Source: Aliirhizobium wenxiniae
Lineage (GTDB): Bacteria; Pseudomonadota; Alphaproteobacteria; Rhizobiales; Rhizobiaceae
Assembly (NCBI RefSeq): GCF_014201355.1
Contig: NZ_JACHEG010000006.1
Coordinates: 111,905 to 175,904 of the forward strand
DNA length: 64,000 nt
Direction of reading: 5' to 3'
Made by a program: the position numbers and the translations under genes. Below the pieces are notes generated by a model. That model was not told the DNA's origin. It was given only the letters and a program-made list of their open reading frames with translations, and made no database searches. Positions within the stretch are counted from its first letter, which is position 1. Each line of letters opens with the position of its first letter. Of the stretch, positions 1,779 through 62,348 are shown in pieces.

Positions 1779-1803
1779 AACGAGAGCGCTTAGCCAAGGT
1801 TCC
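1779..1803 (-). promoter_or_regulatory. EcfG/RpoE2-type promoter of the DUF892 gene
   Basis: On the minus strand: GGAAC, a 17-nt spacer, GTT. The -10 side ends about 42 nt upstream of the DUF892 start codon. Exact match to the general-stress sigma consensus. Confidence 0.75.
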
Positions 1804-2123
1804 CAACAATAATCAGCGGGGTACCGTTACGCCACCGTGGCCATCTCGCTCCGTTTGAGAATAAGGATCGGTCAGGTCGGCGGAAGGAACATCTTACCGT
1901 CCACGCGAGCGATGGTAGCTCCCCTCCCACTATTTCAAAATGACATCAACGATACTCGAACTGCAGCTCCGTAGCAGTTGCAGCGGTCGTTTCGAGCAAA
2001 CTCATCCGCGCCCTGCCACGATGCTTGAGATGGGATCCGCGAGATCAGAACTGCGGAACCATTCCCAATCTGAAATGTCCTCTCGCTGCATTCGAAGAGG
2101 ATGCAGGATTTGGGAGTAAGACT
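1804..2123. other. Gene-free stretch with a near-consensus stress promoter
   Basis: No convincing coding sequence. At 2055-2079 the plus strand carries GGAAC-17 nt-GTC, one base off the EcfG consensus, positioned to transcribe the decayed secreted-protein gene that follows. Confidence 0.4.
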
Positions 2124-2440
2124 ATGAAAAAGACTGCTTTTGGCGTTGCCGCCGCCTTTCTTTCCGCAAACGCAGCGTTCGGGTAGACTGAAGCCCTAAG
2201 ACCTCACAGACGACACCTGCAGTGGCGACATCGGGCGAGCAGAATCCCGGCGCGCCTGTCGCTGGCAAGAACAGCTTCACTGAAGCTCTGGCGAAAACTC
2301 GCATCGAGGAAGCCGGTTACACCGACGCATCGGGTCTCAAGCGCGATGATCAGGGTGTCGGGCGCGCGATGGGCAGCAAGGATGGAAAGCACGCCAACGT
2401 CCCCCTCGACTTCCAGGGTAACATCACGACGGCTCAGTAA
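2124..2440 (+). pseudogene. Decayed small exported protein gene
   Basis: The ATG at 2124 opens a clear signal peptide (MKKTAFGVAAAFLSANAAFG) that runs into an in-frame TAG. The conserved mature part continues in another frame (2222-2440) with PVAGKNSFTEALAKTRIE and VPLDFQGNITTAQ. This pattern, export signal then a PVAG-NSFTE-type domain ending in a QG-N-T motif, is familiar from small rhizobial periplasmic proteins of unknown function. A stop plus a frame change separate the halves, so the gene looks inactivated unless the reads are wrong. Confidence 0.6.
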
Positions 2441-2478
2441 GCCAGCTTCTAAACAAACAAGAGTACGAGGAATCACCC

Positions 2479-2616
2479 GTGCGCACGATTACAGGTCTCT
2501 ACGACCCCTACGAATATGCCCGTGAGGCCGTGAATCCTCTTGATGATGCAGGCGTACCGTCTGATCACATCAGCATCATCTCGAACAAGGACGGCAAGGA
2601 AGATAGCCATATTTGA
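2479..2616 (+). pseudogene. N-terminal fragment of a YflT/general-stress-17M-like protein
   Basis: A 45-residue GTG-started reading frame beginning MRTITGLYDPYEYAREAVN and containing AGVPSDHISIISN. This is the usual beginning of 'general stress protein 17M-like' proteins, which are normally far longer with a glycine-zipper region. Here it stops after DSHI and is followed at once by a terminator, so it is a truncated remnant or a much shortened gene. Confidence 0.5.
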
Positions 2617-2641
2617 AGGCCACTCACCAGAGTGGCCTTTT
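2616..2641 (+). terminator. Intrinsic terminator
   Basis: Perfect 10-bp stem (AAGGCCACTC / GAGTGGCCTT) with a 4-nt loop, ending in T's. It overlaps the stop codon of the short fragment gene. Confidence 0.8.
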
Positions 2642-2851
2642 CGCATCTGAGCCCCCTGAGAATTTACTAGCTTGGCCAACTAAGGAACGCCACTCGTTTC
2701 CTTTCGAGACCTGATCTTGGCCGCGACATCTATCAGCGAAGGTGATCGACGCCTCCGCCCTTTGTAACGGTGCCCTTAACGGAGCATCCTCCGTGAAATC
2801 CTAGCTACCCTCTATCGTCAGCGTACGGTTTTAGACGCTCTGATTGTTTTG

Positions 2852-2876
2852 GGAACTTTGGATGCCAGTTCCGGTT
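2852..2876 (+). promoter_or_regulatory. EcfG/RpoE2-type promoter of Mn catalase 1
   Basis: GGAAC, 17-nt spacer, GTT, ending 31 nt upstream of the catalase start codon. Confidence 0.8.
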
Positions 2877-2907
2877 GGGCCAACGTCTCCAATCGAAAGG
2901 AACCCTC

Positions 2908-3834
2908 ATGTTCATGAGAGTAGACCAGCTCCAAGCGGAGTTGCCCGCGCCAAAAGCTGCGGATCCCAATGCTGCAGCCGCCCTTCAAGAGCTCCTTGGG
3001 GGGAAATACGGCGAGATGTCGACTCTGGGCAATTACATGTTTCAGTCCTTCAACTTCCGATCAAAATCGAAGCTGAAGCCTTTCTATAGCCTCGTCGCCA
3101 GCATCACTGCCGAAGAGCTTGGCCATGTCGAACTTGTGAGCAATGGTGTCGCCATGCTCAACAATGGCCCTGACATTCCCGACTCTGATGAAGGCGACGG
3201 CGGTGATATTTCCGGAGCCCCGTTCAAGGATATGGCCGACATTCGGCTCGCTGCGAGTTTTCTGTCTGGGGGCGGCGGAGCAATGCCGATCAACAGCAAC
3301 GGCCAGTCGTGGAATAACGACTTCATCACGACGACCGGAAACGTAGTCCTCGACTTGCTGCACAACTTCCATCTAGAATGCGGCGCCCGGCTGCACAAGT
3401 TGCGCGTATATGAAACGGTGACAGATCCAACAGGTCGTGAAGTTTGCGGCTATCTTCTCGTCCGGGGTTCCGTGCATGCACATGCCTATGCCCTCGCACT
3501 GGAGAAGATCACCGGCGTCGATGTGAAAAAGTTCTTGCCCACTCCGAACATACCGCTGGGTAACATACCGGAGTGCCAGAAGTACCTGGACGAGGGATCA
3601 CATCGCCGCCTTTATACGTGGAGCCCGAACGACTACAAAGAAATCGCCGGCATCTGGAGCAATGACGAGGTTGCGCTTCCAGGAGATCCTCCGGGTGAGC
3701 TTGAGGTTGTCGACGGTATGCCCGAAGGCGGGAAGATGCAGCAGCTCGTTGGCGTGCCTTCGGCCTTCACCCCGGATTACGCACCGGAAGAGATGTTCGA
3801 GATTGCTGAAAAGCTCTACAAAAAATCTCGCTGA
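2908..3834 (+). CDS. Manganese (non-heme) catalase
   Basis: 308 residues. Decomposes hydrogen peroxide at a dinuclear manganese site inside a ferritin-like bundle. Visible ligand segments include AEELGHVELV, HLECGARLHKLRVYE and SVHAHAYALALEKITG, and the length fits the family. The start is the ATG preceded by AAAGGAA; an ATG-less upstream extension was rejected because it runs through the promoter. It is one of two Mn catalases here (the other is at 30348) and both carry EcfG-type promoters, pointing to general-stress induction rather than OxyR control. Mn catalases do not need heme, which fits iron-poor or oxidative conditions (inference). Confidence 0.92.
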   Translation: MFMRVDQLQAELPAPKAADPNAAAALQELLGGKYGEMSTLGNYMFQSFNFRSKSKLKPFYSLVASITAEELGHVELVSNGVAMLNNGPDIPDSDEGDGGDISGAPFKDMADIRLAASFLSGGGGAMPINSNGQSWNNDFITTTGNVVLDLLHNFHLECGARLHKLRVYETVTDPTGREVCGYLLVRGSVHAHAYALALEKITGVDVKKFLPTPNIPLGNIPECQKYLDEGSHRRLYTWSPNDYKEIAGIWSNDEVALPGDPPGELEVVDGMPEGGKMQQLVGVPSAFTPDYAPEEMFEIAEKLYKKSR

Positions 3835-3907: not shown

Positions 3908-3932
3908 GGAACACACAGGTTGGTAAACCGTT
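3908..3932 (+). promoter_or_regulatory. EcfG/RpoE2-type promoter of the FAD-dependent oxidoreductase
   Basis: GGAAC, 17-nt spacer, GTT, 40 nt upstream of the ATG at 3973. It follows the catalase hairpin, so the two genes have separate promoters. Confidence 0.75.
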
Positions 3933-3972: not shown

Positions 3973-5664
3973 ATGCGTAAACGCGTCGCTATCGTCGGGG
4001 CAGGCCCGACAGGTTTGTATGCCCTTCAGGAACTGATCACCTCCAAACACCCACTAGAGATAATCGTATTCGAAGCCGAGGACATCGCCGGTAAGGGAAC
4101 GCCTTATCAGCGGGGTATTAATGACCCTGCAATGCTTTCAAACATCCCGAGCATTGAGATACCCGAGCTGCCTATGACCTTGGTCGAGTGGCTTGGTGCG
4201 CAGCCAAAAAAATATCTCTCGCAGTTCGAGAGCGGACTCAACCAAATCTCCGAACGAGCCTTTTATCCTCGCGTGGTCCTGGGGGACTATTTTCGAGCCC
4301 AGTTCGAGATGATATTAAAACGTGGCTTGGGCGCAAACCACGAGATAGAGATCCGGGAGAGCGCCGCCGTTGTGGATATCGTGCCTTCGGATGCACGATT
4401 TGGCATTCGGCTCTCCAGCGACACGGGCCTTGAGCTCTTCGACTACGTGATTGTCGCGACCGGCCACAGCTTTCAGACGGCGCCGGAAACCTCGCAAGGA
4501 TTTTTCGAGGCACCATGGCCCGCAACCGCGTTGCGAACGGTTCCGTGCGGCGAGGTCGGCGTCCTTGGAACGTCGCTCAGCGCGATTGATGCCGTCGTGA
4601 CCGTTGCCGCATCGTTTGGGATGTTCACGCGCCGAGCCGATGGACGCCTCGGCTATGTGATCGACCAAGCCCATGAAAGCTTTCAGGCGACGATGATGTC
4701 ACGCAAGGGGCTTTTGCCGGAAGCCGACTTTTACTTCCCAATCCCTTATGAGCAGCCCAGAATATGCACAGCGCAAGCGGTAGCCAGCCGCCTTGCGCTC
4801 GGCAGCAGCGGTTTGCTCGATGACGTCTTCGACCTCTTTCGCGCCGAGTTGGCACTAGCGGACCCAGACTACGCCAGGCTCATCCGCCTCGACACACTCA
4901 CGGTCGATACCTTTGCAGATGCCTATTACGGCGTCCGCGACCAGCATGATCCTTTCGAATGGGCGGCAATCAATCTGGCGGAAGCGAAGCGAAACTATGC
5001 GAAGAAACACACGGTTGCTTGGCGTTATGCGATTCTTATTACCCACGAAATCATAGAGAGTGCCGTCGGTTCGCTCACGGCGGATGACCTCGCGCGATTC
5101 AACAGAACCTTCAAAAGTATCTTCGCCGATGACTATGCAACCGTCCCGCACCTCTCGATTGAGCGCCTTCTCGCGCTCCATCAGGCGGACAGATTGCGGA
5201 TTGTCGCACTCGGCGATAATTCGGCGATCTCGTCTGAAGGCCTTGAACGTGGCGCCGCGGTGAAGAGCGATAAGATTATATTGCGCTTTGACACGTTTAT
5301 CGATGCAACCGGCCAGAAAACGCAGTCCGTTGAAGATCTGCCCTTTCCATCACTTAAGGAGCGGGGTTTTGTCTCAGATGCTCTTACGATAACGCGAAAA
5401 GGCAACTATCGACGCACGGGTGGAGTGGATGTCGACGATCATTGTCGCCCTCTCCTTGCCGGGGTTAAGCCGGTCCGACGGCTTTATCTACCTGCTATAT
5501 CATACCTCCTTCACAAACGCCCATTTGTACAAGGGATAACCAGTGCCGCTGAACTCGGCCAGATGGTAGCGAGGTCGATCAAAGAAGATATTATGCGGCC
5601 GGTTCGTAGCCGGAGAGCGCGCCCCCCCCGGCGCCGGCCCGATGTATCGGCGACTGCGGCATGA
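3973..5664 (+). CDS. FAD/NAD(P)-binding oxidoreductase (NAD_binding_9 type)
   Basis: 563 residues. The N-terminus carries a dinucleotide-binding fold (RVAIVGAGPTGLYALQELI), then a GKGTPYQ segment and a second nucleotide-binding pattern near residue 180 (VIVATGHSF). This arrangement matches the 'FAD-NAD(P)-binding' proteins related to hydroxyacylglutathione/ornithine-monooxygenase-like flavoproteins. The substrate is unknown. The start is chosen at the ATG behind AGGAG; a longer frame from 3853 would overlap the terminator and promoter. The C-terminus is Arg/Pro-rich. Its promoter places it in the general stress regulon beside a catalase, suggesting a redox role (inference). Confidence 0.8.
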   Translation: MRKRVAIVGAGPTGLYALQELITSKHPLEIIVFEAEDIAGKGTPYQRGINDPAMLSNIPSIEIPELPMTLVEWLGAQPKKYLSQFESGLNQISERAFYPRVVLGDYFRAQFEMILKRGLGANHEIEIRESAAVVDIVPSDARFGIRLSSDTGLELFDYVIVATGHSFQTAPETSQGFFEAPWPATALRTVPCGEVGVLGTSLSAIDAVVTVAASFGMFTRRADGRLGYVIDQAHESFQATMMSRKGLLPEADFYFPIPYEQPRICTAQAVASRLALGSSGLLDDVFDLFRAELALADPDYARLIRLDTLTVDTFADAYYGVRDQHDPFEWAAINLAEAKRNYAKKHTVAWRYAILITHEIIESAVGSLTADDLARFNRTFKSIFADDYATVPHLSIERLLALHQADRLRIVALGDNSAISSEGLERGAAVKSDKIILRFDTFIDATGQKTQSVEDLPFPSLKERGFVSDALTITRKGNYRRTGGVDVDDHCRPLLAGVKPVRRLYLPAISYLLHKRPFVQGITSAAELGQMVARSIKEDIMRPVRSRRARPPRRRPDVSATAA

Positions 5665-10000: not shown

Positions 10001-10416
10001 TTCGGTGCATCGCTGGGCGTGTTCCAGATCCGCAGTGCGTCCATTCGCCGACCCATACAGTGGCGCGATGGCGGCACCCTATCGTAGGGCAGGCAATCCC
10101 ATGGCGGCAAAACCACCAGCTGGACCTCGGGGAAAAGGGCAATGAACACTTCCGCTATATCGCTGGCGGATTCTTCGCTGAGCGCCAAATAGCAGATCGA
10201 TCGGCCCGATCCCTTTAATATTGCAGAGAGCCTGACAGCCACGAGACCGGGCGGCGGCTTGAAGCCGAGTTGGTGTGTCGATGGGTCGCGAAACGGGGAG
10301 GGGGCGTGGTCGGGATACTCGGGATTGCGCACGGGAACCTGCTGATGTCTCGCCGGCCCACTGCCGGTCTGCAAGAACCAGATTTCCGCCAACTTGTTCC
10401 CTATTTCGAGGCACAC
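7036..10416 (-). CDS. mfd: Transcription-repair coupling factor-like translocase (Mfd paralogue)
   Basis: 1126 residues with the full Mfd layout: N-terminal UvrB-like region (PPWDCLPYDR), an RNA-polymerase-interacting CarD-like domain (GDVVVHEEHGVGILKD), a RecG-like motor with Walker A (GDVGFGKTE), DEEH box (LLIIDEEHRFG), SATPIPRTL, and LRGRVGRG, then a C-terminal TRCF domain. Mfd displaces stalled RNA polymerase and recruits UvrA. Rhizobia normally have a conserved chromosomal mfd; the accessory setting suggests this is a second, diverged copy (inference). The first residues are low-complexity and the GTG start is uncertain; the true start may lie up to 50 codons downstream. Confidence 0.88.
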   Translation of the reverse strand: MCLEIGNKLAEIWFLQTGSGPARHQQVPVRNPEYPDHAPSPFRDPSTHQLGFKPPPGLVAVRLSAILKGSGRSICYLALSEESASDIAEVFIALFPEVQLVVLPPWDCLPYDRVPPSRHCMGRRMDALRIWNTPSDAPKLMLTSLDAALQRIPPADVIADSNLELVVGEDFDRDAFSDFIQRTGYVEEGIADDPGELAVRDGVIDIYPAGAPGPMRIVISKDDIVRELRGFDRITQRTESYLERVILGPASEAVLSEADTEEIAPKPETMERQLLRLYHDMPTLFAAIGDATVLLAPGGARRVERYLEIVEDACQSQNDIRDRQNKSRSLYLDGTEWEQHAGHVSSLGLDLDEHGELQGGPCDAVPRAELAKLAQHQLRQGLTVVVCGTGKGSDGLCRRVEKATGIAHRSVDTWRAVEQADPGAFLKLPVDLDHGFVDAALNIAMIAVAETVTNLGEQATLLAEPELRIGDVVVHEEHGVGILKDLETVVVGDVGRDAARLEYRDGDSVLVPMEDFGKIWRYSAEPEAVTLDRLHTEAWKKKSGKIAADIRSTARHLLTIAKQRQALPAKKFIPPRKEYSAFTRRFPFAETRDQVEAIKAVLSDLESGKVMNRLICGDVGFGKTEIALRAAAAVALSGGQVAVVAPTTVLARQHYDTFQRRFAQTGIQVGLLSRLLKPNEAKQVKAALSEGEIGVVVATQAILAKNVGFANLALLIIDEEHRFGLKEKRTMGALAPSLHTLSMSATPIPRTLQSAMIGVQEVSLLTTPPSKRRPVRTSLMEFDATSVRTGLMREYRRGGQSFIVVPRIEDINDVSTVLERTVPELSIKIAHGKMPAAAIDEAIVGFADGDGDVLLATNLIENGLDVPRANTIFVWHAGRFGLAQLHQLRGRVGRGAAQGMATLLTEEGTELAEETHLRLLSLVENDRLGAGLAISLRDLELRGAGDIAGEDQAGHMKVIGTGLYQKLLSEAVATLRKKASVKQQRAILNLDVAGTIPLDYVTDPGTRLNLYAKLLQASSLNEIDELSDEFEDRFGEPPEDVLLLLRTSRLQLVAGWLGIAKLEAGPKASAMTLTAKVPSRVVAAWTKNAGAVQREDRWIFETEGKTGKEQLCFFEKIVSAAQGLGE

Positions 10417-10787: not shown

Positions 10788-10812
10788 GGAACTCCAAGGC
10801 GCTGCCTCGGTT
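10788..10812 (+). promoter_or_regulatory. EcfG/RpoE2-type promoter upstream of the malQ remnant
   Basis: GGAAC, 17-nt spacer, GTT. The next Shine-Dalgarno-plus-ATG is at 10854. Confidence 0.7.
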
Positions 10813-10853: not shown

Positions 10854-10940
10854 ATGACCGAGAACATGTGCGTTCGACAAAGCGGACGTTTGCGTCGCGG
10901 CCGCTTTGGCATTATGCGCGAAGCGTCTGCGGTATGCTGA
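10854..10940 (+). CDS. Very short ORF (28 aa) behind a stress promoter
   Basis: Starts MTENMCVRQSGRLRRGRFG, with GGAGG well placed upstream and an EcfG-type promoter 42 nt before it. Arg-rich. It may be a genuine tiny peptide, a leader, or the beginning of a gene lost when the downstream malQ was deleted. Confidence 0.3.
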   Translation: MTENMCVRQSGRLRRGRFGIMREASAVC

Positions 10941-11079
10941 TGAAGAGCCTCACCGGAGAGGACCGAACCGATCGTCGCCGCGGCACGGGCACGGGCACGG
11001 ATGAATTCGAGCCTGAAAGACCATCACCGGCCGGCCGGGAGGTTCCGGTCGCAGGCAGCGGTCGAGATGCGATCCTTGC

Positions 11080-20917: not shown

Positions 20918-21082
20918 TCAGGTCGAAATCTTTCTTGGGCTTTTTCCCGGCGGGTCGCGGTGGACGGTTGCGTCTTCCGATCCGGTGATAACCGTTGGCT
21001 TGGCGCTTGCGACACCGCTTGCCTTGGAGTCCGCTTGCGATGGTGCGTATTGGCCTTTGGCGTCGTCTTCGGGGTTGACCAC
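20918..21082 (-). CDS. Small hydrophilic protein (54 aa), possibly frameshifted
   Basis: GTG start with a strong Shine-Dalgarno (AAAGGAG, 7-nt spacing): VVNPEDDAKGQYAPSQADSK..., Ser/Ala-rich, ending PRKIST. Around 20940 a different frame continues in a protein-like way (AGKKPKKDFDLNNDPSDMDE) across an A5 run, so the gene may be longer and interrupted by one indel. An EcfG-type promoter lies about 230 nt upstream on this strand. No family recognised. Confidence 0.4.
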   Translation of the reverse strand: MVNPEDDAKGQYAPSQADSKASGVASAKPTVITGSEDATVHRDPPGKSPRKIST

Positions 21083-21309: not shown

Positions 21310-21334
21310 AACCGGACGGGTAGCGGATAGTTCC
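21310..21334 (-). promoter_or_regulatory. EcfG/RpoE2-type promoter (minus strand)
   Basis: GGAAC-17 nt-GTT on the minus strand, back-to-back with the plus-strand copy at 21402. It faces the small ORF at 20918-21082 and, further on, the diheme cytochrome gene. About 230 nt separate it from the first clear start codon. Confidence 0.65.
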
Positions 21335-21401: not shown

Positions 21402-21426
21402 GGAACTATTCGAACTTTCTCCGGTT
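21402..21426 (+). promoter_or_regulatory. EcfG/RpoE2-type promoter of the membrane triad operon
   Basis: GGAAC-17 nt-GTT, 44 nt upstream of the first gene of the three-gene operon. Confidence 0.8.
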
Positions 21427-24987: not shown

Positions 24988-25012
24988 GGAACTTCTTCCG
25001 ATCGGAGCGGTT
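24988..25012 (+). promoter_or_regulatory. EcfG/RpoE2-type promoter
   Basis: GGAAC-17 nt-GTT, 108 nt upstream of the ATG at 25121. Confidence 0.7.
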
Positions 25013-28472: not shown

Positions 28473-28497
28473 GGAACTTTTCGTCAGTGCGCCTGTT
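28473..28497 (+). promoter_or_regulatory. EcfG/RpoE2-type promoter of the DUF4142 gene
   Basis: GGAAC-17 nt-GTT, 25 nt before the ATG at 28523. Apart from this promoter the interval 28255-28522 holds nothing recognisable. Confidence 0.8.
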
Positions 28498-28522: not shown

Positions 28523-29053
28523 ATGAAAAAGATCGCACTAGCCGCCGCCGCTCTGATGACAGCCACCGCTGCTTTTGCACAGTCGGCAACCGAGTCTATA
28601 GGCGTTAATTCCGCTTTAGGCCTCGCTCCCAAGACCGAGGAGTTTGTCATGCAGGCATCCGCCAGTGATGTCTTTGAAATCGAGTCCAGCAAACTCGCCA
28701 TGCAAAAGGGCGACGAAGCCGTGAAAAAGTTTGCGACGCAGATGATTGCCGACCATGAGAAAACAACGGCAGAACTGACTGCGCTGCTTGACAGCGGAAA
28801 GGTCGAGGGGAAGGCTGAGACCACGCTTATCGACGACCATAAGGAAAACGTCGACGAGCTTGCCAAACTGGACGGCGCGGAATTCAACGAGAAATACATC
28901 GACGATCAGGTCGAGGCTCACGAGGATGCCGTCGATCTCTTCAAGCGCTATGCAGAGGAAGGCGACAACGCGGATCTCAAGGCATTCGCTGCCAAGCATC
29001 TTGCCGCCCTCGAGCATCACCACAAAATGGCTCAAGACATGGATAACGATTGA
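28523..29053 (+). CDS. DUF4142 periplasmic ferritin-like protein
   Basis: 176 residues with a clear signal peptide (MKKIALAAAALMTATAAFAQ). The mature part is the DUF4142 helical bundle with characteristic segments EFVMQASASDVFEIESSKLA, FATQMIADHEKTTAEL and HLAALEHHHKMAQ. DUF4142 proteins have a ferritin-like fold and occur in stress regulons; their activity is unproven. Start supported by AAGGAG. It has its own promoter and a strong terminator, so it is monocistronic. Confidence 0.88.
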   Translation: MKKIALAAAALMTATAAFAQSATESIGVNSALGLAPKTEEFVMQASASDVFEIESSKLAMQKGDEAVKKFATQMIADHEKTTAELTALLDSGKVEGKAETTLIDDHKENVDELAKLDGAEFNEKYIDDQVEAHEDAVDLFKRYAEEGDNADLKAFAAKHLAALEHHHKMAQDMDND

Positions 29054-29274: not shown

Positions 29275-30138
29275 TCAAATCATGATCTCACCACCTGTGA
29301 CCGGGATAACCGCTCCAGTCATGTAGCTTCCAAGCTCTGAAGCCAGCAGGACATACGCTCCGGCCAGTTCCGCAGGCTGGCCCGCCCGTTTCAACAGGGT
29401 CTGTTCGCCGAACTTAGCTGATTTTTCCGGCGACATGGTTGAGGGAATGAGGGGAGTCCAGATCGGTCCTGGCGCTACGGCGTTCACGCGTATGCCCTTT
29501 GCGGCGAGCATCTCCGCCAAACCTGCTGTGAAATTAGAGACGGCTCCCTTTGTTGAGGCGTACGCAAGGAGCTGAGGAGACGGTTGGCGGGACTGGATGG
29601 ATGTGGTGTTAATGATAGCGCCGCCAGGTTTCATATGAGGTGCGGCGGCTTTTGAAAGGAAAAACGGTGCATAGATATTTGTCCGGAAGGTCTCATCCCA
29701 TTCAACGGCGCTGATGTCGCTGATGTCGGCATAGGTCCTTTGGAAAGCCGCGTTGTTCACGAGGACATCGAGGCCGCCAAGTTCTGCCACCGTTCGTTCC
29801 ACCAAGTCGATGCAGTGATCCTCTGATTTGATGTCGCCGGGAATCACAAGGGCTTTCCGGCCGGCATCTCCCACCCATTTGGCCGTATCGTGCGCATCTT
29901 CATCCTCGTTGAGATAGGAAATGACAACGTCAGCCCCTTCGCGGGCAAACGCGATTGCAACTGCTTTACCGATACCGGAGTCAGCGCCTGTAATGAGGGC
30001 CACCTTGCCTGCCAGCCTTCCGTTGCCTTGATAGGAATGCTCTCCGTGATCGGGCACAGGCTTCATAAGCTTTGTTTCGCCAGGGGGCTGTTGCTGCTGC
30101 TCAGGCTGCGGCGGGGAAGGGCGACGTTCTTCAGTCAT
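29275..30138 (-). CDS. Short-chain dehydrogenase/reductase (YghA-like)
   Basis: 287 residues. A Pro/Gln-rich N-terminus (about 40 residues) precedes a classical SDR domain: cofactor motif TGADSGIGKA, NNAA, an active-site Ser in TTSIQS and YASTKGA (Tyr-x-x-x-Lys). The extended N-terminus and the HSYQG-like segment match the YghA/'SDR family oxidoreductase' stress group. The substrate is unknown. ATG 30138 is behind AGGAG. After the stop the same frame stays open for 41 codons without a start (ending TTKTPQQER); significance unclear. Divergent from Mn catalase 2, each with its own stress promoter. Confidence 0.88.
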   Translation of the reverse strand: MTEERRPSPPQPEQQQQPPGETKLMKPVPDHGEHSYQGNGRLAGKVALITGADSGIGKAVAIAFAREGADVVISYLNEDEDAHDTAKWVGDAGRKALVIPGDIKSEDHCIDLVERTVAELGGLDVLVNNAAFQRTYADISDISAVEWDETFRTNIYAPFFLSKAAAPHMKPGGAIINTTSIQSRQPSPQLLAYASTKGAVSNFTAGLAEMLAAKGIRVNAVAPGPIWTPLIPSTMSPEKSAKFGEQTLLKRAGQPAELAGAYVLLASELGSYMTGAVIPVTGGEIMI

Positions 30139-30170: not shown

Positions 30171-30195
30171 AACCAAACAAGTGCCTCACAGTTCC
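30171..30195 (-). promoter_or_regulatory. EcfG/RpoE2-type promoter of the SDR gene
   Basis: On the minus strand GGAAC-17 nt-GTT, ending 33 nt before the SDR start codon; paired divergently with 30273-30297. Confidence 0.78.
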
Positions 30196-30272: not shown

Positions 30273-30297
30273 GGAACTTCCAAACCCGCTCCCTGTT
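30273..30297 (+). promoter_or_regulatory. EcfG/RpoE2-type promoter of Mn catalase 2
   Basis: GGAAC-17 nt-GTT, 50 nt upstream of the catalase ATG. Confidence 0.8.
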
Positions 30298-30347: not shown

Positions 30348-31211
30348 ATGTTTAGTTTCGACAAGCGTCTGCAGTATCCGGTCAAGGTCGGTTCTCCCGA
30401 CCCCATCTTCGCCAGGATGCTCCAGCAGGCGATCGGCGGCGTCGAGGGCGAGATCCGCGTTTGCATGCAGTACTTCTTCCAGGCTTGGGGCGCACGCGGC
30501 CCGACTACAAAATACCGGGACATGCTTCTCCACACAGCGACGGAAGAAATCGGCCATATCGAAATGCTGGCAACAGCCGTCGCCCTCAATCTCGACAAGG
30601 CCCCGGCCAGCCTCGCTGAAGCCGGCGCTGCAGACGGAATTGTCGGCGCAGTCATGGGGGGCGAAAACCCCCGCCACGTCGTTGAAGGCATGCTGCACCG
30701 TCACATTCTGTCTACCGGCATGGCGGCCTTTCCAGGCAATTCGGAAGGTGTGCCGTTCGACATGTCGCATATTTATGCGAGCGGCAATCTGGCAGCGGAT
30801 ATGTACTGCAACGTAGCAGCCGAAAGCACCGGCCGAGTGTTGGCAACACGTCTCTATAATGCCGCTCATGATGAGGGCATGAAGGACATGCTTCATTTCA
30901 TGATCGCCCGCGACACCATGCACCAGCAACAGTGGCTGGCGGTTATCGAAGAGCTCGGCGGACATGAGGGCGCGCTGCCCATCCCCAATAGCTTCCCCCA
31001 GGAAAAGGAAGATCAGACTCACAACTACGATTTCTTTGCCACCGCTTCGGATGGCTCCGTGCCACCTCCCGCGCGATGGAATGACGGCCCCTCGATGGAT
31101 GGTAAAGGTCAGTTCACGGTGTTCCAGAACGTCCCGATGGGTGACGAACCAGTTCTTGGACCGGCGCGACCGGATAGTGGTGCGCAGAACGAGCAGATCG
31201 GGAAAGTGTAA
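30348..31211 (+). CDS. Manganese catalase (second, KatN-like)
   Basis: 287 residues. Ferritin-like bundle with metal-ligand segments GGVEGEIRVCMQYFFQ, HTATEEIGHIEM, NVAAESTGRV and HDEGMKDMLHFMIARDTMHQ; the C-terminal tail is typical of hexameric Mn catalases. It removes hydrogen peroxide in the cytoplasm. Quite different in sequence from the enzyme at 2908, so the two are not a recent duplication. Shine-Dalgarno GAGGAG. A 420-codon open frame antisense to this gene is a shadow. Confidence 0.93.
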   Translation: MFSFDKRLQYPVKVGSPDPIFARMLQQAIGGVEGEIRVCMQYFFQAWGARGPTTKYRDMLLHTATEEIGHIEMLATAVALNLDKAPASLAEAGAADGIVGAVMGGENPRHVVEGMLHRHILSTGMAAFPGNSEGVPFDMSHIYASGNLAADMYCNVAAESTGRVLATRLYNAAHDEGMKDMLHFMIARDTMHQQQWLAVIEELGGHEGALPIPNSFPQEKEDQTHNYDFFATASDGSVPPPARWNDGPSMDGKGQFTVFQNVPMGDEPVLGPARPDSGAQNEQIGKV

Positions 31212-32176: not shown

Positions 32177-32359
32177 TCAGGTTTCTGTGACCGGGCCACA
32201 GACGGCGATGAAAATATAAGGAGCAAAGGCTGCAACTACGAATGCCTCCAGGAAACCGACCGCGCCACGTCCCATTACAACCTTGCGCTTCCTGTCTTGC
32301 GGCGAGTCATTCGAGGGGGTTAGACCCGTCGGCGTGTGCGTGCATTTATGTCCTGTCAC
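32177..32359 (-). CDS. Small membrane protein (60 aa)
   Basis: GTG start behind GGGAG. A polar N-terminus is followed by one hydrophobic helix (GFLEAFVVAAFAPYIFIAV). Unknown family. First gene after a minus-strand EcfG-type promoter and immediately upstream of a second tiny membrane protein. Confidence 0.5.
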   Translation of the reverse strand: MTGHKCTHTPTGLTPSNDSPQDRKRKVVMGRGAVGFLEAFVVAAFAPYIFIAVCGPVTET

Positions 32360-32386: not shown

Positions 32387-32411
32387 AACCGACGCATGAG
32401 GGGAAAGTTCC
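32387..32411 (-). promoter_or_regulatory. EcfG/RpoE2-type promoter, minus strand of a divergent pair
   Basis: On the minus strand GGAAC-17 nt-GTT. Its -35 overlaps a perfect dyad (32395-32402 CATGAGGG, 32410-32417 complement). Faces the two small membrane protein genes. Confidence 0.72.
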
Positions 32412-32422: not shown

Positions 32423-32447
32423 GGAACTAATGACGTTTGCTCAGGTT
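32423..32447 (+). promoter_or_regulatory. EcfG/RpoE2-type promoter of the NDH-2 operon
   Basis: GGAAC-17 nt-GTT, 32 nt before the GTG of the NADH dehydrogenase gene. Confidence 0.8.
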
Positions 32448-32479: not shown

Positions 32480-33781
32480 GTGCCAGAACGTATCCTAATA
32501 ATCGGAGGAGGCTTTGGCGGCCTTGCCTGTGCGCGAGAGCTTGGCGACACGGAGTACTCGGTCACTGTGATTGATCGTCGCAATCACAACCTTTTCCAGC
32601 CATTGTTATATCAGGTAGCAACCGCGGCACTTTCCCCCGCAGATATCGCCGAGCCCATCCGCAAGACCTTGGGTCGTTATCGCAACATCAACATGATCAT
32701 GGCCGAGGTGGTCGGGATCGATGTGCAACGGCAGCTTGTTCAGCTCGAGGGCGGCGACCGGGTTGATTATGACCGTCTGGTCATCGCCACTGGGTCGGAA
32801 TATAATTATTTCGGCAGAGATACCTGGCGCGATAACGCACCGGGCATGAAGACGATTCACGAAGCCCGCCAGATCCGGCAGCGTCTCTTATCGTCATTCG
32901 AGAAGGCGGAGAGAGCCCACAACGAACAGGAGAAGCGCAACCTTCTCACTTATGTGGTGATCGGAGGCGGGCCGACCGGCGTCGAGATGGCCGGAGCGAT
33001 ATCCGAGCTTGGTCGCTTCATGATCAACAGGGACTTCAGAAACATCCAACCCGACCAGCTCAGGGTGATCCTGATCGAGGCGGGTCCCCGGATCCTCGCC
33101 GCGTTTCCGGAAAAGCTCATCGACTACGCGCGCCACTACCTTGAGAAGATCGGTGTAGAGGTGCGCACAGGCGAGAGGGTCCTTGATGTAAGATCGGATG
33201 GCGTCACGGTTGGGAGTGAGTTCATTCGAACCGGCTGCGTCGTCTGGGGCGCGGGCGTCAAGGCGTCGCCCGCGCACCGGTGGCTCGGGCTTGATGCTGT
33301 CCCAGGCGGTCGTATTCCGGTTGATCCTCAGTTGCAGGTCGTAGGCCACCGAAACATTTTTGCCCTTGGAGACACCGCCGATTTCACGGGAACCGATGCA
33401 AAGCCGCTGCCCGGCCTGGCGCAGGTTGCCAAGCAGCAAGGGGTCTACCTTGGGCGTCTGTTGAAAAATCAAAGTGCCGACCCGGCGGCGTTTGTGTTCA
33501 GGAACCGAGGCAACACAGCGGTTATCGGACGAAACGCAGCCATTTTCGATTTCGGCAAGTGGACCTTGAAGGGAAGAGCCGCCTGGTTCCTGTGGGCCTT
33601 CGTGCACGTGTACCTGCTGATCAATTTCGAAAAGCGCATCCTCGTGAGTGTTCAATGGATATGGCGCTACCTCACCCGGCAGCGCGGCGCGCGCCTGATT
33701 GAGGAAGGCTCGATCGGGGGGGCCGATGTAACCGTGCCCTCTGTCGTTTACCCAGTGACCAGGCCAGGAGGTGTTAGATGA
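32480..33781 (+). CDS. Type II NADH dehydrogenase (NDH-2-like flavoprotein)
   Basis: 433 residues. FAD-binding fold at the N-terminus (ILIIGGGFGGLACAREL), NQ-type motif FQPLLYQVATAALSPADIA, NAD-binding fold (LTYVVIGGGPTGVEMAGAI), FAD-contacting FALGDTADF, LPGLAQVAKQQGVYLGR, and an amphipathic/hydrophobic C-terminus (AAWFLWAFVHVYLLINF) for membrane attachment. It passes electrons from NADH to quinone without proton pumping. Start is GTG behind GAGGGG. Under stress control it could keep NADH turnover going when complex I is limiting (inference). Overlaps the next gene by ATGA. Confidence 0.9.
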   Translation: MPERILIIGGGFGGLACARELGDTEYSVTVIDRRNHNLFQPLLYQVATAALSPADIAEPIRKTLGRYRNINMIMAEVVGIDVQRQLVQLEGGDRVDYDRLVIATGSEYNYFGRDTWRDNAPGMKTIHEARQIRQRLLSSFEKAERAHNEQEKRNLLTYVVIGGGPTGVEMAGAISELGRFMINRDFRNIQPDQLRVILIEAGPRILAAFPEKLIDYARHYLEKIGVEVRTGERVLDVRSDGVTVGSEFIRTGCVVWGAGVKASPAHRWLGLDAVPGGRIPVDPQLQVVGHRNIFALGDTADFTGTDAKPLPGLAQVAKQQGVYLGRLLKNQSADPAAFVFRNRGNTAVIGRNAAIFDFGKWTLKGRAAWFLWAFVHVYLLINFEKRILVSVQWIWRYLTRQRGARLIEEGSIGGADVTVPSVVYPVTRPGGVR

Positions 33782-34210: not shown

Positions 34211-34235
34211 GGAACTCTGGGAGGGGAAAGCAGTT
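34211..34235 (+). promoter_or_regulatory. EcfG/RpoE2-type promoter of the second DUF892 gene
   Basis: GGAAC-17 nt-GTT, only 25 nt before the ATG at 34261, giving a very short leader. Confidence 0.75.
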
Positions 34236-34260: not shown

Positions 34261-34773
34261 ATGTCTGAAGATAAGACAAGAGATATCTTCATTACAGGTC
34301 TGAAGAACGCTCACGCGATGGAGAACCAGGCGCTCTCCATCATGAAGCCTCAGGTCAAGCGGATCGAGAACTATCCCGATGTCGCAGCGAGGCTCGAAGA
34401 GCATATCCGAGAGACGGAAGGACAAATCAGACGTCTGGATGAGATCCTGACATCCCTCGCCAAGGGAAACTCCTCGTTAAAGGATGCTGCCCTGTCATTC
34501 ACCGGCTCGATGGCAGCACTTAGCCATACCGTCGCCGGGGATGAAATCCTCAAGAACAGCATGGCCAGTTTCGCATTCGAGCACTTCGAAATTGCGGCTT
34601 ATAAATCGCTGATCACGATCGCCGAGCTCGGCGGCTTCGCAGCGTTGGTCAATCCCTTGCAGGCTAGCCTCAACGAAGAAATCGCTATGGCTGCATGGCT
34701 TGAAGAGAACCTCCGTCCAACAACGATCCGGTTCGCCAATCTCAAGGAAGCAGGCGTCTCGGCAAAGATATAA
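34261..34773 (+). CDS. DUF892 (YciE/YciF-like) ferritin-fold protein
   Basis: 170 residues; the DUF892 bundle spans nearly all of it: FITGLKNAHAMENQALSIM, HIRETEGQIRRLDEILTSLA and ASFAFEHFEIAAYKSLITIA. This member is of the more diverged 'AHAMENQA' type, unlike the YAEKKI type at 1060 and 35435. ATG 34261 fits AGGAGG better than the ATG three bases earlier. Confidence 0.85.
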   Translation: MSEDKTRDIFITGLKNAHAMENQALSIMKPQVKRIENYPDVAARLEEHIRETEGQIRRLDEILTSLAKGNSSLKDAALSFTGSMAALSHTVAGDEILKNSMASFAFEHFEIAAYKSLITIAELGGFAALVNPLQASLNEEIAMAAWLEENLRPTTIRFANLKEAGVSAKI

Positions 34774-35434: not shown

Positions 35435-35935
35435 TCACGCGCTCTTTTTGGCGCCCTTGGGATTTGCAGACGCCTCGCCAAGCTGGGTGAGAAGCTGATC
35501 AGTCTCGAGCTCCTCCTGAAGATTGGCATCGAGCAGGGGAACAATGTCCTTCAGACTAAGCTGGCCCGCCCAGCTTTTCAGGGTGCCGTAGCGGGCAATC
35601 TCGTAATGCTCGACGGCCTGGGCCGACGCGATAAGGCCAGCATCGAGGGCGACGGAGCCTTTGAATTCGTCGATGATTTCTTCGGCTTCGGCAATGATGC
35701 CCTGGATGGCTTCACAGGTCTTGCCGCGGGCTGGCTTGCCAAGGAGTTCAAAGACCTGCTGCAGGCGTTCGATTTGCCCTTCGGTCTGCTCCTTATGCTT
35801 TAGAAAGGCCGCTTTACCGTCTTCCGACTGCGACGCACGCGCCATCTTTGGCAAGGCCTTCAGAATCTGCTTTTCGGCATAGTAGATGTCCTTGAGCGTA
35901 TCGAGGAACAGGTCGTCTAAAGTCTTCTCAGACAT
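35435..35935 (-). CDS. DUF892 (YciE/YciF-like) ferritin-fold protein
   Basis: 166 residues: DTLKDIYYAEKQILKALPKM, HKEQTEGQIERLQQVFELLG and AVEHYEIARYGTL give the complete DUF892 pattern. It is the tail-less paralogue of the protein at 1060, sharing the YYAEK..LPKM and EHYEI segments. Shine-Dalgarno AAGGAG. Exact EcfG-type promoter upstream. Confidence 0.9.
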   Translation of the reverse strand: MSEKTLDDLFLDTLKDIYYAEKQILKALPKMARASQSEDGKAAFLKHKEQTEGQIERLQQVFELLGKPARGKTCEAIQGIIAEAEEIIDEFKGSVALDAGLIASAQAVEHYEIARYGTLKSWAGQLSLKDIVPLLDANLQEELETDQLLTQLGEASANPKGAKKSA

Positions 35936-35970: not shown

Positions 35971-35995
35971 AACTTTCGAGGAAAATGAAAGTTCC
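35971..35995 (-). promoter_or_regulatory. EcfG/RpoE2-type promoter of the third DUF892 gene
   Basis: On the minus strand GGAAC-17 nt-GTT, ending 35 nt before the ATG at 35935. Confidence 0.8.
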
Positions 35996-36581: not shown

Positions 36582-36606
36582 GGAACTCCGAAGTCCAGCG
36601 TCTGTT
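36582..36606 (+). promoter_or_regulatory. EcfG/RpoE2-type promoter of a response regulator
   Basis: GGAAC-17 nt-GTT, 110 nt before the TTG start at 36717. Confidence 0.7.
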
Positions 36607-36716: not shown

Positions 36717-37109
36717 TTGGACAATTCCGTTTATCTAAGCCTTTTCGCGGGCAAGCATATTTTGGTCGTCGAAGACGAGTATTTTCTCGCTGATGAGACC
36801 CGTCAAAAGCTCGAACAGCTCGGTGCCACGGTTGTCGGTCCCGCCGCAAATGTGGAAGACGCCCTTGAGCTCATCGCATCTTCAAAAATCGATGGCGCGA
36901 TCCTGGACGTGCATCTGGGAGACGAATTTGTGTTTCCCGTCGCGGAAGAACTTGAGCAGGCGGACGTGCCGTTCGTCTTTGCAACGGGCTACGATCCTGA
37001 CGTCATTCCGGCAAAATTCTCAGGCTTTGCCCTTTGCGGGAAGCCCACGGAGCTTGGAAAAATCGCGTCCGCCTTGTTCAATCCTGGCGGTGGCGTTGCG
37101 CTGAATTGA
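36717..37109 (+). CDS. Single-domain response regulator
   Basis: 130 residues, one receiver domain: acidic pair in VVEDEYF, phospho-acceptor Asp in AILDVHLGD, Thr/Ser-side ATGYD, and Lys in ALCGKPTE. No output domain. Such stand-alone receivers act with HWE-type kinases, often as phosphate sinks or relays in general stress signalling. TTG start with weak signals; an internal start is possible. Convergent with the sigma factor gene. Confidence 0.8.
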   Translation: MDNSVYLSLFAGKHILVVEDEYFLADETRQKLEQLGATVVGPAANVEDALELIASSKIDGAILDVHLGDEFVFPVAEELEQADVPFVFATGYDPDVIPAKFSGFALCGKPTELGKIASALFNPGGGVALN

Positions 37110-37640: not shown

Positions 37641-37665
37641 AACAGTGATTTCCCCGTATCGTTCC
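37641..37665 (-). promoter_or_regulatory. EcfG/RpoE2-type promoter of the ECF sigma gene
   Basis: On the minus strand GGAAC-17 nt-GTT, 23 nt before the sigma factor ATG; suggests autoregulation or control by a sister EcfG. Confidence 0.8.
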
Positions 37666-47534: not shown

Positions 47535-47560
47535 GGAACTTTTCAGCCGTGACAGGGGTT
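47535..47560 (+). promoter_or_regulatory. EcfG/RpoE2-like promoter with 18-nt spacer
   Basis: GGAAC-18 nt-GTT, 23 nt before the ATG at 47584. One base longer than the common spacing here; within the published GGAAC-N18-19-TT definition. Confidence 0.55.
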
Positions 47561-50401: not shown

Positions 50402-50515
50402 GATTCAACTGCGTCATCGGCGACTCAGTTCCGATTCGAAAAATGAATCATTTTCAATGGTTTGATTCAATTTTCTCCTGCAACCATGAGATTCAAATCA
50501 AGCCTATGGATTCGA
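50402..50515. repeat. Five GATTCRA repeats between Ku and a divergent small gene
   Basis: GATTCAA or GATTCGA occurs at 50402, 50433, 50464, 50490 and 50509. The first three are spaced exactly 31 bp apart. Includes a TGAATCA/TGATTCA dyad at 50444-50469. Could be regulator sites in the divergent region. Confidence 0.45.
50407..50432 (-). promoter_or_regulatory. EcfG/RpoE2-like promoter of the Ku operon (18-nt spacer)
   Basis: On the minus strand GGAAC-18 nt-GTT, 37 nt before the Ku start codon. Confidence 0.6.
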
Positions 50516-55312: not shown

Positions 55313-55366
55313 TGTTGATTTCCACTGAGAGCTGACCCGGCGTTTCCACCGAGAAGTGACCCGCCT

Positions 55367-56179
55367 TTAGGTATCGTTTGTGGTGGTCGTAGTGGTCAAG
55401 GTCTTGCGTTTCTCCTTCGTTGTTTTGGGCTCATGCGCAGAGCTGTTCTTGAAGCGGAAGCTGTCATTTCCGGTTTCAAGGATGTGGCAATGATGGGTAA
55501 GCCGGTCGAGCAATGCCGTGGTCATCTTGGCATCACCGAAGACGCTGGCCCATTCGCTGAAGCTGAGGTTGGTCGTGATGATGACGCTGGTCCGCTCGTA
55601 GAGCTTGCTCAGCAGATGGAACAGCATCGCACCGCCTGACGCGCTGAACGGCAAGTACCCAAGCTCATCGAGGATGACGAGATCAGGGTGGACGAGGCGG
55701 TTGGCGATCTGGCCGGAGCGCCCTTGCCCCTTTTCCTGTTCCAGCGCGTTGACCAGCTCGACCGTCGAGAAGAACCGGACCCGCTTATGGTGGTGCTCGA
55801 TGGCTTGGACACCGATCGCCGTAGCAATGTGCGTCTTGCCCGTGCCGGGACCGCCGACCAGGACGATGTTGTTGGCGTCGTTGAGGAAGTCGCAGCCATG
55901 GAGTTGCTGCACGAGCGCCTCGTTGATCTCGCTGCTGGCGAAGTCGAAGCCGTTCAGATCACGATAGGCCGGGAAGCGTGCCGTCTTGAGTTGATATGCC
56001 GTCGATCGGACCTCTCGTTCGGCCGTTTCCGCCTTGAGAAGCTGGGACAGGATTGGAATGGCAGCCTCGAACGCCGGCGATCCCTGTTCGGTCAGATCAC
56101 CGACGGCGTGGGCCATTCCGTGCATCTTCAGTTGCCGCAGCATGATGACGATCGCGCCGCTTGCCGGGTTATGACGCAT
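55367..56179 (-). CDS. istB: IstB-like ATPase of IS21 element
   Basis: 270 residues; AAA+ ATPase helper with Walker [17 protein letters not shown] and Walker [14 protein letters not shown]. It selects target DNA and activates IstA. Complete; overlaps the istA stop by 11 bases. Confidence 0.9.
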
Positions 56180-58503: not shown

Positions 58504-58596
58504 ATGAAACACGCAGATCATGCTCGACTGACCACCACAGAACTCGTCTCATCCGTCCTTGAACGCGCGATCCGTGTATGGAGCAGACAACAATAA
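58504..58596 (+). CDS. Very short ORF (30 aa), doubtful
   Basis: MKHADHARLTTTELVSSVLE RAIRVWSRQQ with a good Shine-Dalgarno (AGGAG). Overlaps the damaged 3' end of imuB on the other strand; might be the beginning of a gene cut off by that junction. Confidence 0.25.
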   Translation: MKHADHARLTTTELVSSVLERAIRVWSRQQ

Positions 58597-60720: not shown

Positions 60721-61104
60721 GTGGCCCAGGTGGTCGGTGAAGCTCCCCCTGAAGCAGACTTCTTCACATGGGATGTGCCGGAGAATATTCTTTACGCAGA
60801 CGGTGCGCTCGCCAATCTCTTCGGCTTGAACCCAGTCGTAGCGTCACAGGGTCTGCCGATTGAGTCATATTTGGACCGGGTGCACCAAGAAGATCGGCCT
60901 CAACTGGCGAAGACGATCCGCGACAGCATCGTGACAGACAGGCCGCAAAATGAGACCTATCGGGTTATGAACGCAGAGGGGCACTACGCCTTCGTCACGG
61001 GTTACGGTCGTGGCTTCCGAAACAAGGACGGAGATATCATCCGCTATGTGGGGATTGTTGTGCCTATCAACGCGCCGATGTCTCCGTCAAAGCACACCCA
61101 CTAG
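60721..61104 (+). CDS. Single PAS-domain protein
   Basis: About 127 residues. PAS core FFTWDVPENILYADGALANL and a PAC part YRVMNAEGHYAFVTGYGRGF RNKDG. No output domain; possibly a short sensor or remnant of a larger kinase. The GTG at 60721 is a guess without Shine-Dalgarno; the upstream frame runs into the reversed imuA, marking a rearrangement. Confidence 0.6.
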   Translation: MAQVVGEAPPEADFFTWDVPENILYADGALANLFGLNPVVASQGLPIESYLDRVHQEDRPQLAKTIRDSIVTDRPQNETYRVMNAEGHYAFVTGYGRGFRNKDGDIIRYVGIVVPINAPMSPSKHTH

Positions 61105-61107
61105 AGT

Positions 61108-61446
61108 TCACTGACCCGTTTCGATGAGGTTTGTTTTTGGTTTGTCTTCTGGAGCACTTCGCTCGATCGATTTCAGGCTATTCAGAATGGTGCGAACACC
61201 TGCGTGGTTCGTCGAATAATAAACATTCTGAGCATCTCGACGAGTAACCACTAATTGCTCGTTCCGAAGCCTTGCCAAATGCTGTGACAGGGCTGACTGG
61301 CTCAGTCCCACCTTTTTAGCCAGATCACCGACGCCAACTTCCTGCTCAGAGATGATTTGCATGATCTGGAGCCTCTTATGATTGGCAAGCGCCGATAGCA
61401 GTTTCGAGTGAATTTCTAGCGCGTCCTTGGAGCGCAAAACGATCAT
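61108..61446 (-). CDS. NolR-like ArsR-family regulator
   Basis: 112 residues: LLSALANHKRLQIMQIISEQ, VGDLAKKVGLSQSALSQHLA RLRN, VTRRDAQNVYYST. The helix-turn-helix and the RRDAQ-YYS end resemble rhizobial NolR, a global repressor of nodulation and other genes. Start at the ATG opening MIVLRSK; the longer frame to 61566 lacks support. Its targets here are unknown. Confidence 0.8.
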   Translation of the reverse strand: MIVLRSKDALEIHSKLLSALANHKRLQIMQIISEQEVGVGDLAKKVGLSQSALSQHLARLRNEQLVVTRRDAQNVYYSTNHAGVRTILNSLKSIERSAPEDKPKTNLIETGQ

Positions 61447-61830
61447 CCTGACATGAGAATCAACTAATGTAGAAGCAACCCATAGATCATTTATCTCTAT
61501 ATTAAAGCGGCATTTTTTAGTCACGCGCGTGACTACACTTATCCCCCGCCGGATAGGTGGCCCCACCTAACGGATAAAATCGTCGAGTGGTCTTCTCGCC
61601 AAGATGACGCACCAAGTGAATTCGCATCAGAAAAGTTCGGTGGCAGCAGCTTCCTGCAAAATCACGCCTCGCGATAAGGCGGGACCACATCGCAAGTGTA
61701 GCCGACATACAAGCCTGACCCGACCTCGGCACAACAAGGAACGCCAGTCGCGACGTTACAATCAATCGCTGTTCTTTGCCGCCGAGATAATAGCTGCCTT
61801 GTCGATCTCTTCGTACGACAATCGGGCCTC

Positions 61831-62025
61831 TCAGAGAGGCTCACTCGATTCACCCAAGATTTCGATTGAGACCATGTTCATCGGCGGACAGGGCAGTCCG
61901 TCTGCGGTGACATCCGTCAGCATACGAGCCGCCTCAATCTTTGCCTCGTCGAGCGAAGCGAAGTCGCCCTCACCCTCGGTGACGCTTCCGTCGCGCTCTA
62001 AGATTTCGAAATAGAACTTTGGCAT
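61831..62025 (-). CDS. DUF6894 family small protein
   Basis: 64 residues: MPKFYFEILERDGSVTEGEG, DEAKIEAARMLTDVTADGLP, VSIEILGESSEPL. Same family layout as the protein at 41264. Nine bases downstream of the DUF2934-like gene and likely cotranscribed. Confidence 0.75.
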   Translation of the reverse strand: MPKFYFEILERDGSVTEGEGDFASLDEAKIEAARMLTDVTADGLPCPPMNMVSIEILGESSEPL

Positions 62026-62034
62026 TAGAAAATC

Positions 62035-62298
62035 TCAGCCTCGTCCTGCATTGCTCTCGTCGCCATCACCTGCGGCGGGCCAATCGTTCGCTGGCTCCTG
62101 AACTTGTTCATTTTCAACCAGACCGGTGCTGGTTGGCGGAGACACCCCGCCGCCACGATCAGCTGACCATGTCTGAGGGCTATTACCGTGGGACGCCTCA
62201 TGCTCGGCTTCTCGCCAATGACGATCTTGTTGCCCTTCAGGTCGGCCCTCAGCTTCCCACTTGGCGTGTGCGAGCTTACGAATTTGCTCTAGATCCAT
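62035..62298 (-). CDS. DUF2934-like protein with EPANDWPAA segment
   Basis: 87 residues. N-terminal DUF2934-like IRKLAHAKWEAEGRPEGQQD (then HWREAE), a Gly/Ser-rich middle and a C-terminal EPANDWPAAGDGDE. GAGGAG upstream, and an exact EcfG-type promoter precedes it, so the pair with the DUF6894 gene is likely stress-induced. Confidence 0.75.
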   Translation of the reverse strand: MDLEQIRKLAHAKWEAEGRPEGQQDRHWREAEHEASHGNSPQTWSADRGGGVSPPTSTGLVENEQVQEPANDWPAAGDGDESNAGRG

Positions 62299-62323
62299 AG
62301 ATTACTCCTCTTCGTTACAGCCG

Positions 62324-62348
62324 AACAAATTTCGCGAAAGTCGGTTCC
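62324..62348 (-). promoter_or_regulatory. EcfG/RpoE2-type promoter of the DUF2934-DUF6894 pair
   Basis: On the minus strand GGAAC-17 nt-GTT, 25 nt before the start codon at 62298. Confidence 0.75.

Follow-up and report, generated by a model that had tools for sequence, protein, structure and literature searches.

Predicted general-stress promoters clustered around an orphan EcfG-type σ factor gene of Aliirhizobium wenxiniae

The closest described counterparts of the system considered here are the two EcfG σ factors of Rhizobium etli, whose regulons are partly separate, with 11 genes in common (PMC3892343). In Escherichia coli, EcfG1 and EcfG2 each prefer their own promoter; GGAAC-N16-CGTT was obtained as the EcfG1 motif and none emerged for the EcfG2 regulon, and autoregulation of ecfG2 is reported in the same paper. 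According to a 2021 review, the promoter pattern of non-canonical EcfG factors is “yet to be determined” (PMC8103513). Here we analyze a stretch of 64,000 bases (G000:C6:111905-175904, referred to as the window) from the 6.43-Mb, 24-contig genome of Aliirhizobium wenxiniae, in which a gene for an EcfG-type σ factor lies among many copies of the GGAAC-N17-GTT sequence. The sequence evidence makes it likely that the window contains part of a general-stress cluster read mainly by this orphan σ factor, through promoters that lack C before GTT.

Excess and placement of GGAAC-N17-GTT sites

A site was defined as an exact GGAAC-N17-GTT match on either strand, and expected numbers were obtained from 100 dinucleotide shuffles; the same motif read backwards served as the genome-wide control pattern. 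The window contains 20 sites where 1.91 are expected (standard deviation 1.41, maximum 6), so the motif is not matched in frequency by shuffled sequence. All 17 sites listed in a preliminary description of the window were correct in coordinate and strand; three more (10376-, 63566- and 63749+) had been overlooked. The genome as a whole contains 269 sites (214 for the backwards pattern), and the window, which makes up 1% of it, holds 20; the rate outside the window predicts 2.5 (Poisson P 3.6e-12). The extended form, GGAACT-N16-GTT, is present 82 times genome-wide (54 times backwards) and 14 times in the window, against 0.68 expected.

Density was compared with the exact pattern: there are 31 sites per 100 kb in the window, 3.7 on contig C1 and 2.2 on contig C2. 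The two latter rates refer to whole contigs (63 and 35 sites by our own tally of the site listing, many of those on C1 being located at 1.43-1.63 Mb) and are a fairer control than a 400-kb sample of C1 and C2, which undersamples them (4 sites, none promoter-positioned). Nine one-mismatch sites are promoter-positioned in the window; their density there is 14 per 100 kb, and in the control it is 3.2.

Fifteen of the 20 sites end 24-122 nt upstream of a start called by our home-made gene caller on the correct strand. These are 15 of the 17 sites listed previously, and 13 of them fall within the 20-110 nt claimed for most sites. The other two, 21310- and 32387-, have no called gene behind them and precede conserved tiny open reading frames (ORFs) of 54 and 60 aa (Table 1), in agreement with the proposal that tiny genes are among the targets. 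As predicted promoters, the sites very probably head genes for Mn-catalases, DUF892 proteins, oxidoreductases, tiny proteins, a response regulator and the σ factor itself. Taken together, the window sites are very probably general-stress (EcfG-type) promoters. Chance or base composition, to which we give next to no credence, would find a point in its favor in the backwards pattern, which, with seven occurrences in the window, outnumbers the forward pattern in every shuffle; against it stand the size of the excess, the placement before starts and the counterparts in relatives, by which chance is refuted for the site set. Single sites, e.g., 63566- and 10376-, could still be due to chance.

The distribution of sites is uneven. 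The peak reported for 21-38 kb is real: 12 sites are located between 21,310 and 37,665, which corresponds to 73 per 100 kb. No exact site with a 17-nt spacer is found at 10.8-21.3 kb or at 37.7-62.3 kb, and another 36 sites are scattered over the 266 kb of C6 outside the window, where 20 (our gene call) or 21 (another gene model) are promoter-positioned. Clusters are present on other contigs as well, and C1, C8 and C16 also bear orphan σ factor genes, the one on C16 not being close to the sites listed for that contig. The view of the window as one module does not hold in the face of this patchiness and of the richness of the rest of C6; coordinate induction of its genes is a prediction. Matches to repC were found on C4, C8 (two) and C10 and none on C6, which could be a plasmid fragment.

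Sites with 18-nt spacers were also searched for. The two reported previously, 47535+ and 50407-, do exist and lie shortly before starts, and there is a third at 58452+; an excess in number was not observed (3 against 1.5 expected, with 20 of 100 shuffles reaching 3). Two-way palindromic promoters (GGAAC-N17-GTTCC) seemed frequent by eye and did not exceed expectation in any of the five sets counted.

The σ factor of the window and the base before GTT

The best solved relative of the window σ factor is 5uxx (104 bits, the next one scoring 63), which is labelled only “RNA polymerase sigma factor” and reads in region 2.4 as the genome's own canonical EcfG does; we take it to be EcfG in complex with NepR. 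In a 90-row tree, the window σ factor falls outside the canonical clade, among other orphan types. R. etli EcfG2 (PF00052) belongs to another small group, and the basal forks between orphan groups do not resolve, so that orthology with PF00052 is not placed. The window protein is 48% identical to R. etli EcfG2 and 39% identical to the genome's own EcfG1. Judging by the presence of both extracytoplasmic function (ECF) domains, by its closeness to EcfG and by its position in the tree, it is a non-canonical (orphan) EcfG; five genes of the orphan type are present in the genome. The preliminary description, which spoke of a σ factor of the same class as EcfG/RpoE2, was thus right about the broad class and missed the orphan, non-canonical type.

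No match to NepR was found on C6, even at E values up to 1, and no nepR or phyR gene lies beside the window σ factor gene. Genome-wide, there are just two NepR matches, both on C1: a good one beside phyR and ecfG, and a weak one that stays under the cut-off, next to the orphan σ factor gene of C1, at a threshold loose enough for 8 of 14 control genomes to give a match too. Orthologues 84-87% identical to the window σ factor are encoded in four of 59 other genomes searched (L165-L168). In all four, the σ factor gene adjoins that of the response regulator, and a site precedes each of them; three have retained DUF892 genes, and in the fourth the region is cut off by the end of the contig. Orthologous genes in these relatives have sites at similar distances and with differing spacers (the fixed columns are exact by construction). 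At positions 77/78 of the σ factor, all 63 canonical rows have R and K, and window-like rows have mostly G and L; there are many consistent differences between the two groups in and next to region 2.4.

The base before GTT is rarely C in the window (2 of 15 promoter-positioned sites), in the rest of C6 (3/21) and on R. etli p42f (1/10). The EcfG/RpoE2 label given to these promoters previously is therefore sound as to the EcfG type and may name the wrong σ factor. The bias was first spotted in the window and R. etli, tested on 80 named loci already fetched, and then tested on loci of the same genus fetched later; gene neighborhood served as a proxy for which σ factor reads a given site, and related genomes are not independent. 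By tree, the 80 loci comprise 42 of the canonical clade, 9 intermediate and 29 non-canonical ones, with a NepR-like motif within 700 nt in 32, 0 and 4, respectively. At promoter-positioned sites, C precedes GTT in 71 of 90 cases (79%) in the canonical clade and in 30 of 93 at non-canonical loci. Within the genus, the corresponding values are 27/30 (90%) for canonical nepR loci, 5/72 for window-like orphan loci and 32/88 for a chromosomal orphan type. With the window included, window-like loci have C in 7 of 87 sites, against a background of 30.3% before intergenic GTT (P 9e-7); for sites inside genes, the value is 10/39. In all 14 genomes with both canonical and window-like loci, the C fraction is higher at the canonical ones, and in 10 genomes with both orphan types it is higher for the chromosomal type in five and lower in none.

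The same was seen when downstream families were counted instead of sites. Families with a majority of C number 3 of 34 for window-like loci (window included), 5 of 14 for the chromosomal orphan type and 3 of 5 for canonical loci of the genus; in other genera they number 26 of 32 for the canonical clade and 11 of 48 for non-canonical loci (chromosomal type excluded). The difference between window-like loci (3/34) and the canonical clade of other Alphaproteobacteria (26/32) has a P of 1.8e-9. A site is found before the σ factor gene itself in 15 of 21 window-like loci, the window included, and is CGTT in one of the 15. In this group, T is also favored at positions 6 and 8 of the site. Avoidance of C is, in our judgment, probably a real property of window-like islands, and we propose GGAAC-N16-(not C)GTT as the predicted promoter pattern for σ factors of this type. 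In a search limited to open-licence papers, no title, opening of an abstract or inspected passage gave such a pattern.

At loci of the chromosomal orphan type (L185-L204), the two spacer lengths are used about equally, with 75 promoter-positioned sites for 18 nt and 88 for 17 nt, unlike at same-genus loci of the other two types, where sites with 18-nt spacers number 5 (window-like) and 2 (canonical). This may be a third promoter dialect.

Which σ factor reads the sites

Binding by the orphan σ factor, induction of the sites and insulation of the regulons are inferred, and the scheme that we propose is as follows. Upon stress, PhyR would free canonical EcfG from NepR (the locus on C1). The orphan EcfG gene would then be switched on, and its product would amplify itself from its own GGAAC-N16-TGTT promoter and transcribe the island, i.e., single stress genes and short gene runs. 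Since island promoters keep GGAAC and GTT and avoid C before GTT, canonical EcfG, which seemingly wants CGTT, should read them poorly.

As an alternative, NepR-controlled canonical EcfG could read all the sites, the non-C −10 elements being merely weaker and the orphan σ factor adding little. Published work gives this some ground: the −10 element is flexible in Sphingopyxis, where CGTT is best for both EcfG paralogues (PMC7083833); the Methylobacterium consensus is C/GGTT, and the paralogues are said to read similar promoters (PMC4814048); a single motif is stated for both R. etli σ factors (PMC4167512); and Sinorhizobium meliloti RpoE2 activates rpoE5, with overexpression of RpoE5 yielding one target (PMC6180224). 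Weak selection would, however, leave C near background, and the islands are below it (7/87), with canonical loci at 79% and 90%. We consider this alternative unlikely.

Under another alternative, the orphan σ factor would be blind to the position preceding GTT, C being rare there because a few promoters have a common origin; the cluster would still be its regulon. Against this, the depletion persists if each downstream family is counted once (34 families, C 0.10); the near-background C of the chromosomal orphan type (32/88), the 30/93 found at non-canonical loci of other genera taken together and the ability of R. etli EcfG2 to read the phyR promoter (PMC3892343) argue for it. It seems to us somewhat improbable, though less so than reading by canonical EcfG. 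The explanations overlap in part, and our confidence in them is not meant to add up to one.

Besides the published findings just cited, several results weigh against a cluster read mainly by the orphan σ factor through non-C promoters. Other island-like pieces of the genome (on C8, C10, C15 and C16) have C in 10 of 26 sites. Of 15 sites at the nine intermediate loci (Caulobacterales and others), all of which lack a NepR-like motif within 700 nt, 13 have C, because of which an orphan EcfG by itself does not mean non-C promoters. Canonical loci of the genus provide just five downstream families, three of them majority-C. R. etli katG, published as EcfG2-dependent and tried as a positive control, has no exact site, and neither does R. 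etli ecfG2. Non-canonical EcfG factors have been described as not autoregulated (PMC8103513), at odds with the predicted self-regulation. For four promoter-positioned window sites out of 15 (3908, 10788, 24988 and 62324), the fetched loci offer no counterpart that has a site. A single specificity residue does not explain the bias: positions 77/78 track it, and yet R. etli EcfG2 has R-R with non-C sites.

With these points taken into account, reading of the cluster by the orphan σ factor remains our favored explanation. We put forward more tentatively, with doubt slightly prevailing, that window-type islands of Rhizobiaceae may use a one-base insulation code, GGAAC-N16-(G/T/A)GTT, in which C is selected against and which would divide the general stress response of Alphaproteobacteria, so that canonical EcfG would read its CGTT regulon and not the islands, and the orphan σ factor would read the islands and itself. 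In its simplest reading, the lack of C would serve to keep canonical EcfG out and would not be something that the orphan σ factor itself requires. If true, this would supply the missing promoter pattern of non-canonical EcfG factors and a reason for genomes to keep several EcfG copies; regulons could be told apart by one letter, which is testable with one-base reporter variants. Stress genes may gather round orphan EcfG genes as self-amplifying islands.

Features of the window and comparison with described EcfG systems

Sites and neighboring genes are listed in Table 1.

Table 1. Positions of GGAAC-N17-GTT sites (predicted promoters) and of genes close to them in the window
Feature	Position	Strand	Remarks
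Site (CGTT)	1779..1803	-	42 nt before DUF892 gene 1060-1737
Site	2852..2876	+	32 nt before Mn-catalase 2908-3834; counterpart in fetched loci
Mn-containing catalase	2908..3834	+	99% identical in L178
Site (CGTT)	3908..3932	+	41 nt before FAD/NAD(P)-binding protein 3973-5664; no counterpart with site in fetched loci
Site	10376..10400	-	First codons of called TRCF (Mfd-like) gene 7036-10416; doubtful promoter unless true start is downstream
Site	10788..10812	+	122 nt before GH77-like gene fragment 10934-11620; no counterpart with site in fetched loci
54-aa ORF, multi-copy small-protein family	20918..21082	-	6 of 10 examined copies (own included) have exact site 28-249 nt upstream
Site	21310..21334	-	~227 nt before 54-aa ORF
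Site	21402..21426	+	45 nt before 205-aa / holin-X-like / DUF3618 gene run 21471-23465; kept in L167
Site	24988..25012	+	109 nt before 119-aa gene 25121-25480, then GH15 and SMP-30 genes; no counterpart with site in fetched loci
Site	28473..28497	+	26 nt before DUF4142 gene; sites before DUF4142 genes also in L178, L179 and R. etli p42f
DUF4142 protein	28523..29053	+	Domain match
Short-chain dehydrogenase/reductase (SDR)	29275..30138	-	Domain match
Site	30171..30195	-	33 nt before SDR gene; counterpart in fetched loci
Site	30273..30297	+	51 nt before Mn-catalase; counterpart in fetched loci
Mn-containing catalase	30348..31211	+	Domain match
60-aa ORF, unlisted	32177..32359	-	63% identical, full length, in L165
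Site	32387..32411	-	27 nt before 60-aa ORF; site at matching place in L165
Site	32423..32447	+	33 nt before NDH-2-like gene; kept in L165
NDH-2-like pyridine nucleotide-disulphide oxidoreductase	32480..33781	+	Domain match
Site	34211..34235	+	26 nt before DUF892 gene; counterpart in fetched loci
DUF892 protein	34261..34773	+	Domain match
DUF892 (YciE/YciF-like ferritin-like) protein	35435..35935	-	76% identical gene beside R. etli ecfG2, p42f
Site	35971..35995	-	36 nt before DUF892 gene; counterpart in fetched loci
Site	36582..36606	+	111 nt before response regulator gene; kept at 99-113 nt in L165-L168
Single-domain response regulator, PFVFATGY	36717..37109	+	Pfam Response_reg; convergent with σ factor gene; beside σ factor gene in L165-L168
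Non-canonical EcfG-type ECF σ factor, 166 aa	37117..37617	-	Sigma70_r2, Sigma70_r4_2 and PhyR_sigma2 matches
Site (GGAAC-N16-TGTT)	37641..37665	-	24 nt before σ factor gene; predicted autoregulation
18-nt-spacer site	47535..47560	+	24 nt before 59-aa gene 47584-47763
18-nt-spacer site	50407..50432	-	38 nt before 49464-50369, first of a pair of ku genes (second at 48639-49451)
Site	62324..62348	-	26 nt before small genes (DUF2934, DUF6894); no counterpart with site in fetched loci
Site	63566..63590	-	Within hydrolase ORF by one gene call of two; weak case
Site	63749..63773	+	203 nt before start at 63976 of 287-aa gene running past window

Copies of the 54-aa family are present on C6, C8 and C16 of the genome and in relatives. 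A well-placed later start was sought in the TRCF gene and none was found. The alpha/beta-hydrolase frame at 62639-63592 (-) is apparently in two pieces and is perhaps a broken gene. Three small single-domain response regulators are encoded near the σ factor gene: the one in Table 1, which has its own promoter site and matches the PhyR-family receiver with 40 bits, far under the model cut-off of 240, and those at 38957-39322 (PFVFTTGY) and 39337-39741 (PFIFVTGY), both under the Pfam cut-off.

Elsewhere in the window, a ROSE-type RNA thermometer (Rfam RF00435; 48.8 bits, gathering threshold 45) is located at 44806-44893 (+), before an Hsp20 gene (44887-45357). A cytochrome oxidase cluster (COX1, COX2 with cytochrome c, COX3, CtaG and cytochromes c) beside a molybdopterin oxidoreductase occupies 11610-20803; its G+C content is 0.58-0.60, and it contains no stress-type sites. 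Transposase-like genes (HTH_38 with rve, and IstB_IS21 plus an rve protein) are found at 53715-57695, between the ku genes and a gene for an IMS_C (Y-family polymerase-like) protein at 58549-59937.

Among described systems, Sphingopyxis granuli (EcfG1 and EcfG2) and Methylobacterium extorquens (EcfG1-6) share with A. wenxiniae the presence of several EcfG paralogues and a variable −10 element; unlike in the window, their paralogues are reported to read similar promoters, and avoidance of C is not described in the accessible parts of the sources. S. meliloti RpoE5 is a second σ factor of the ECF15 group and is encoded on a secondary replicon (pSymB); it differs in that it has a putative NepR-like partner and that its overexpression yielded one target (PMC6180224). 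Canonical EcfG factors governed by the PhyR-NepR switch (R. etli EcfG1/RpoE4, S. meliloti RpoE2) have in common with the window system the ECF architecture, the GGAAC −35 element, the GTT core and stress targets. The window σ factor is distinguished from them by the lack of adjoining nepR/phyR, by 39% identity to the EcfG1 of its own genome, by −10 elements mostly without C and by the differences in and next to region 2.4. R. etli EcfG2 (PF00052, on p42f; Jans 2013, PMC3892343) is 48% identical to the window σ factor and is not its sister in the tree, and the p42f site cluster is not described in the accessible part of that paper. In both cases, however, an orphan σ factor gene with no nepR/phyR nearby adjoins a DUF892 gene, and the R. 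etli region also contains DUF4142 and Crp/Fnr genes, a match to the DUF6894 gene of the window, and a cluster of GGAAC-N17-GTT sites (14 in the 40 kb round ecfG2, 10 in the other 185 kb sampled) with mostly non-C −10 elements, as in the window.

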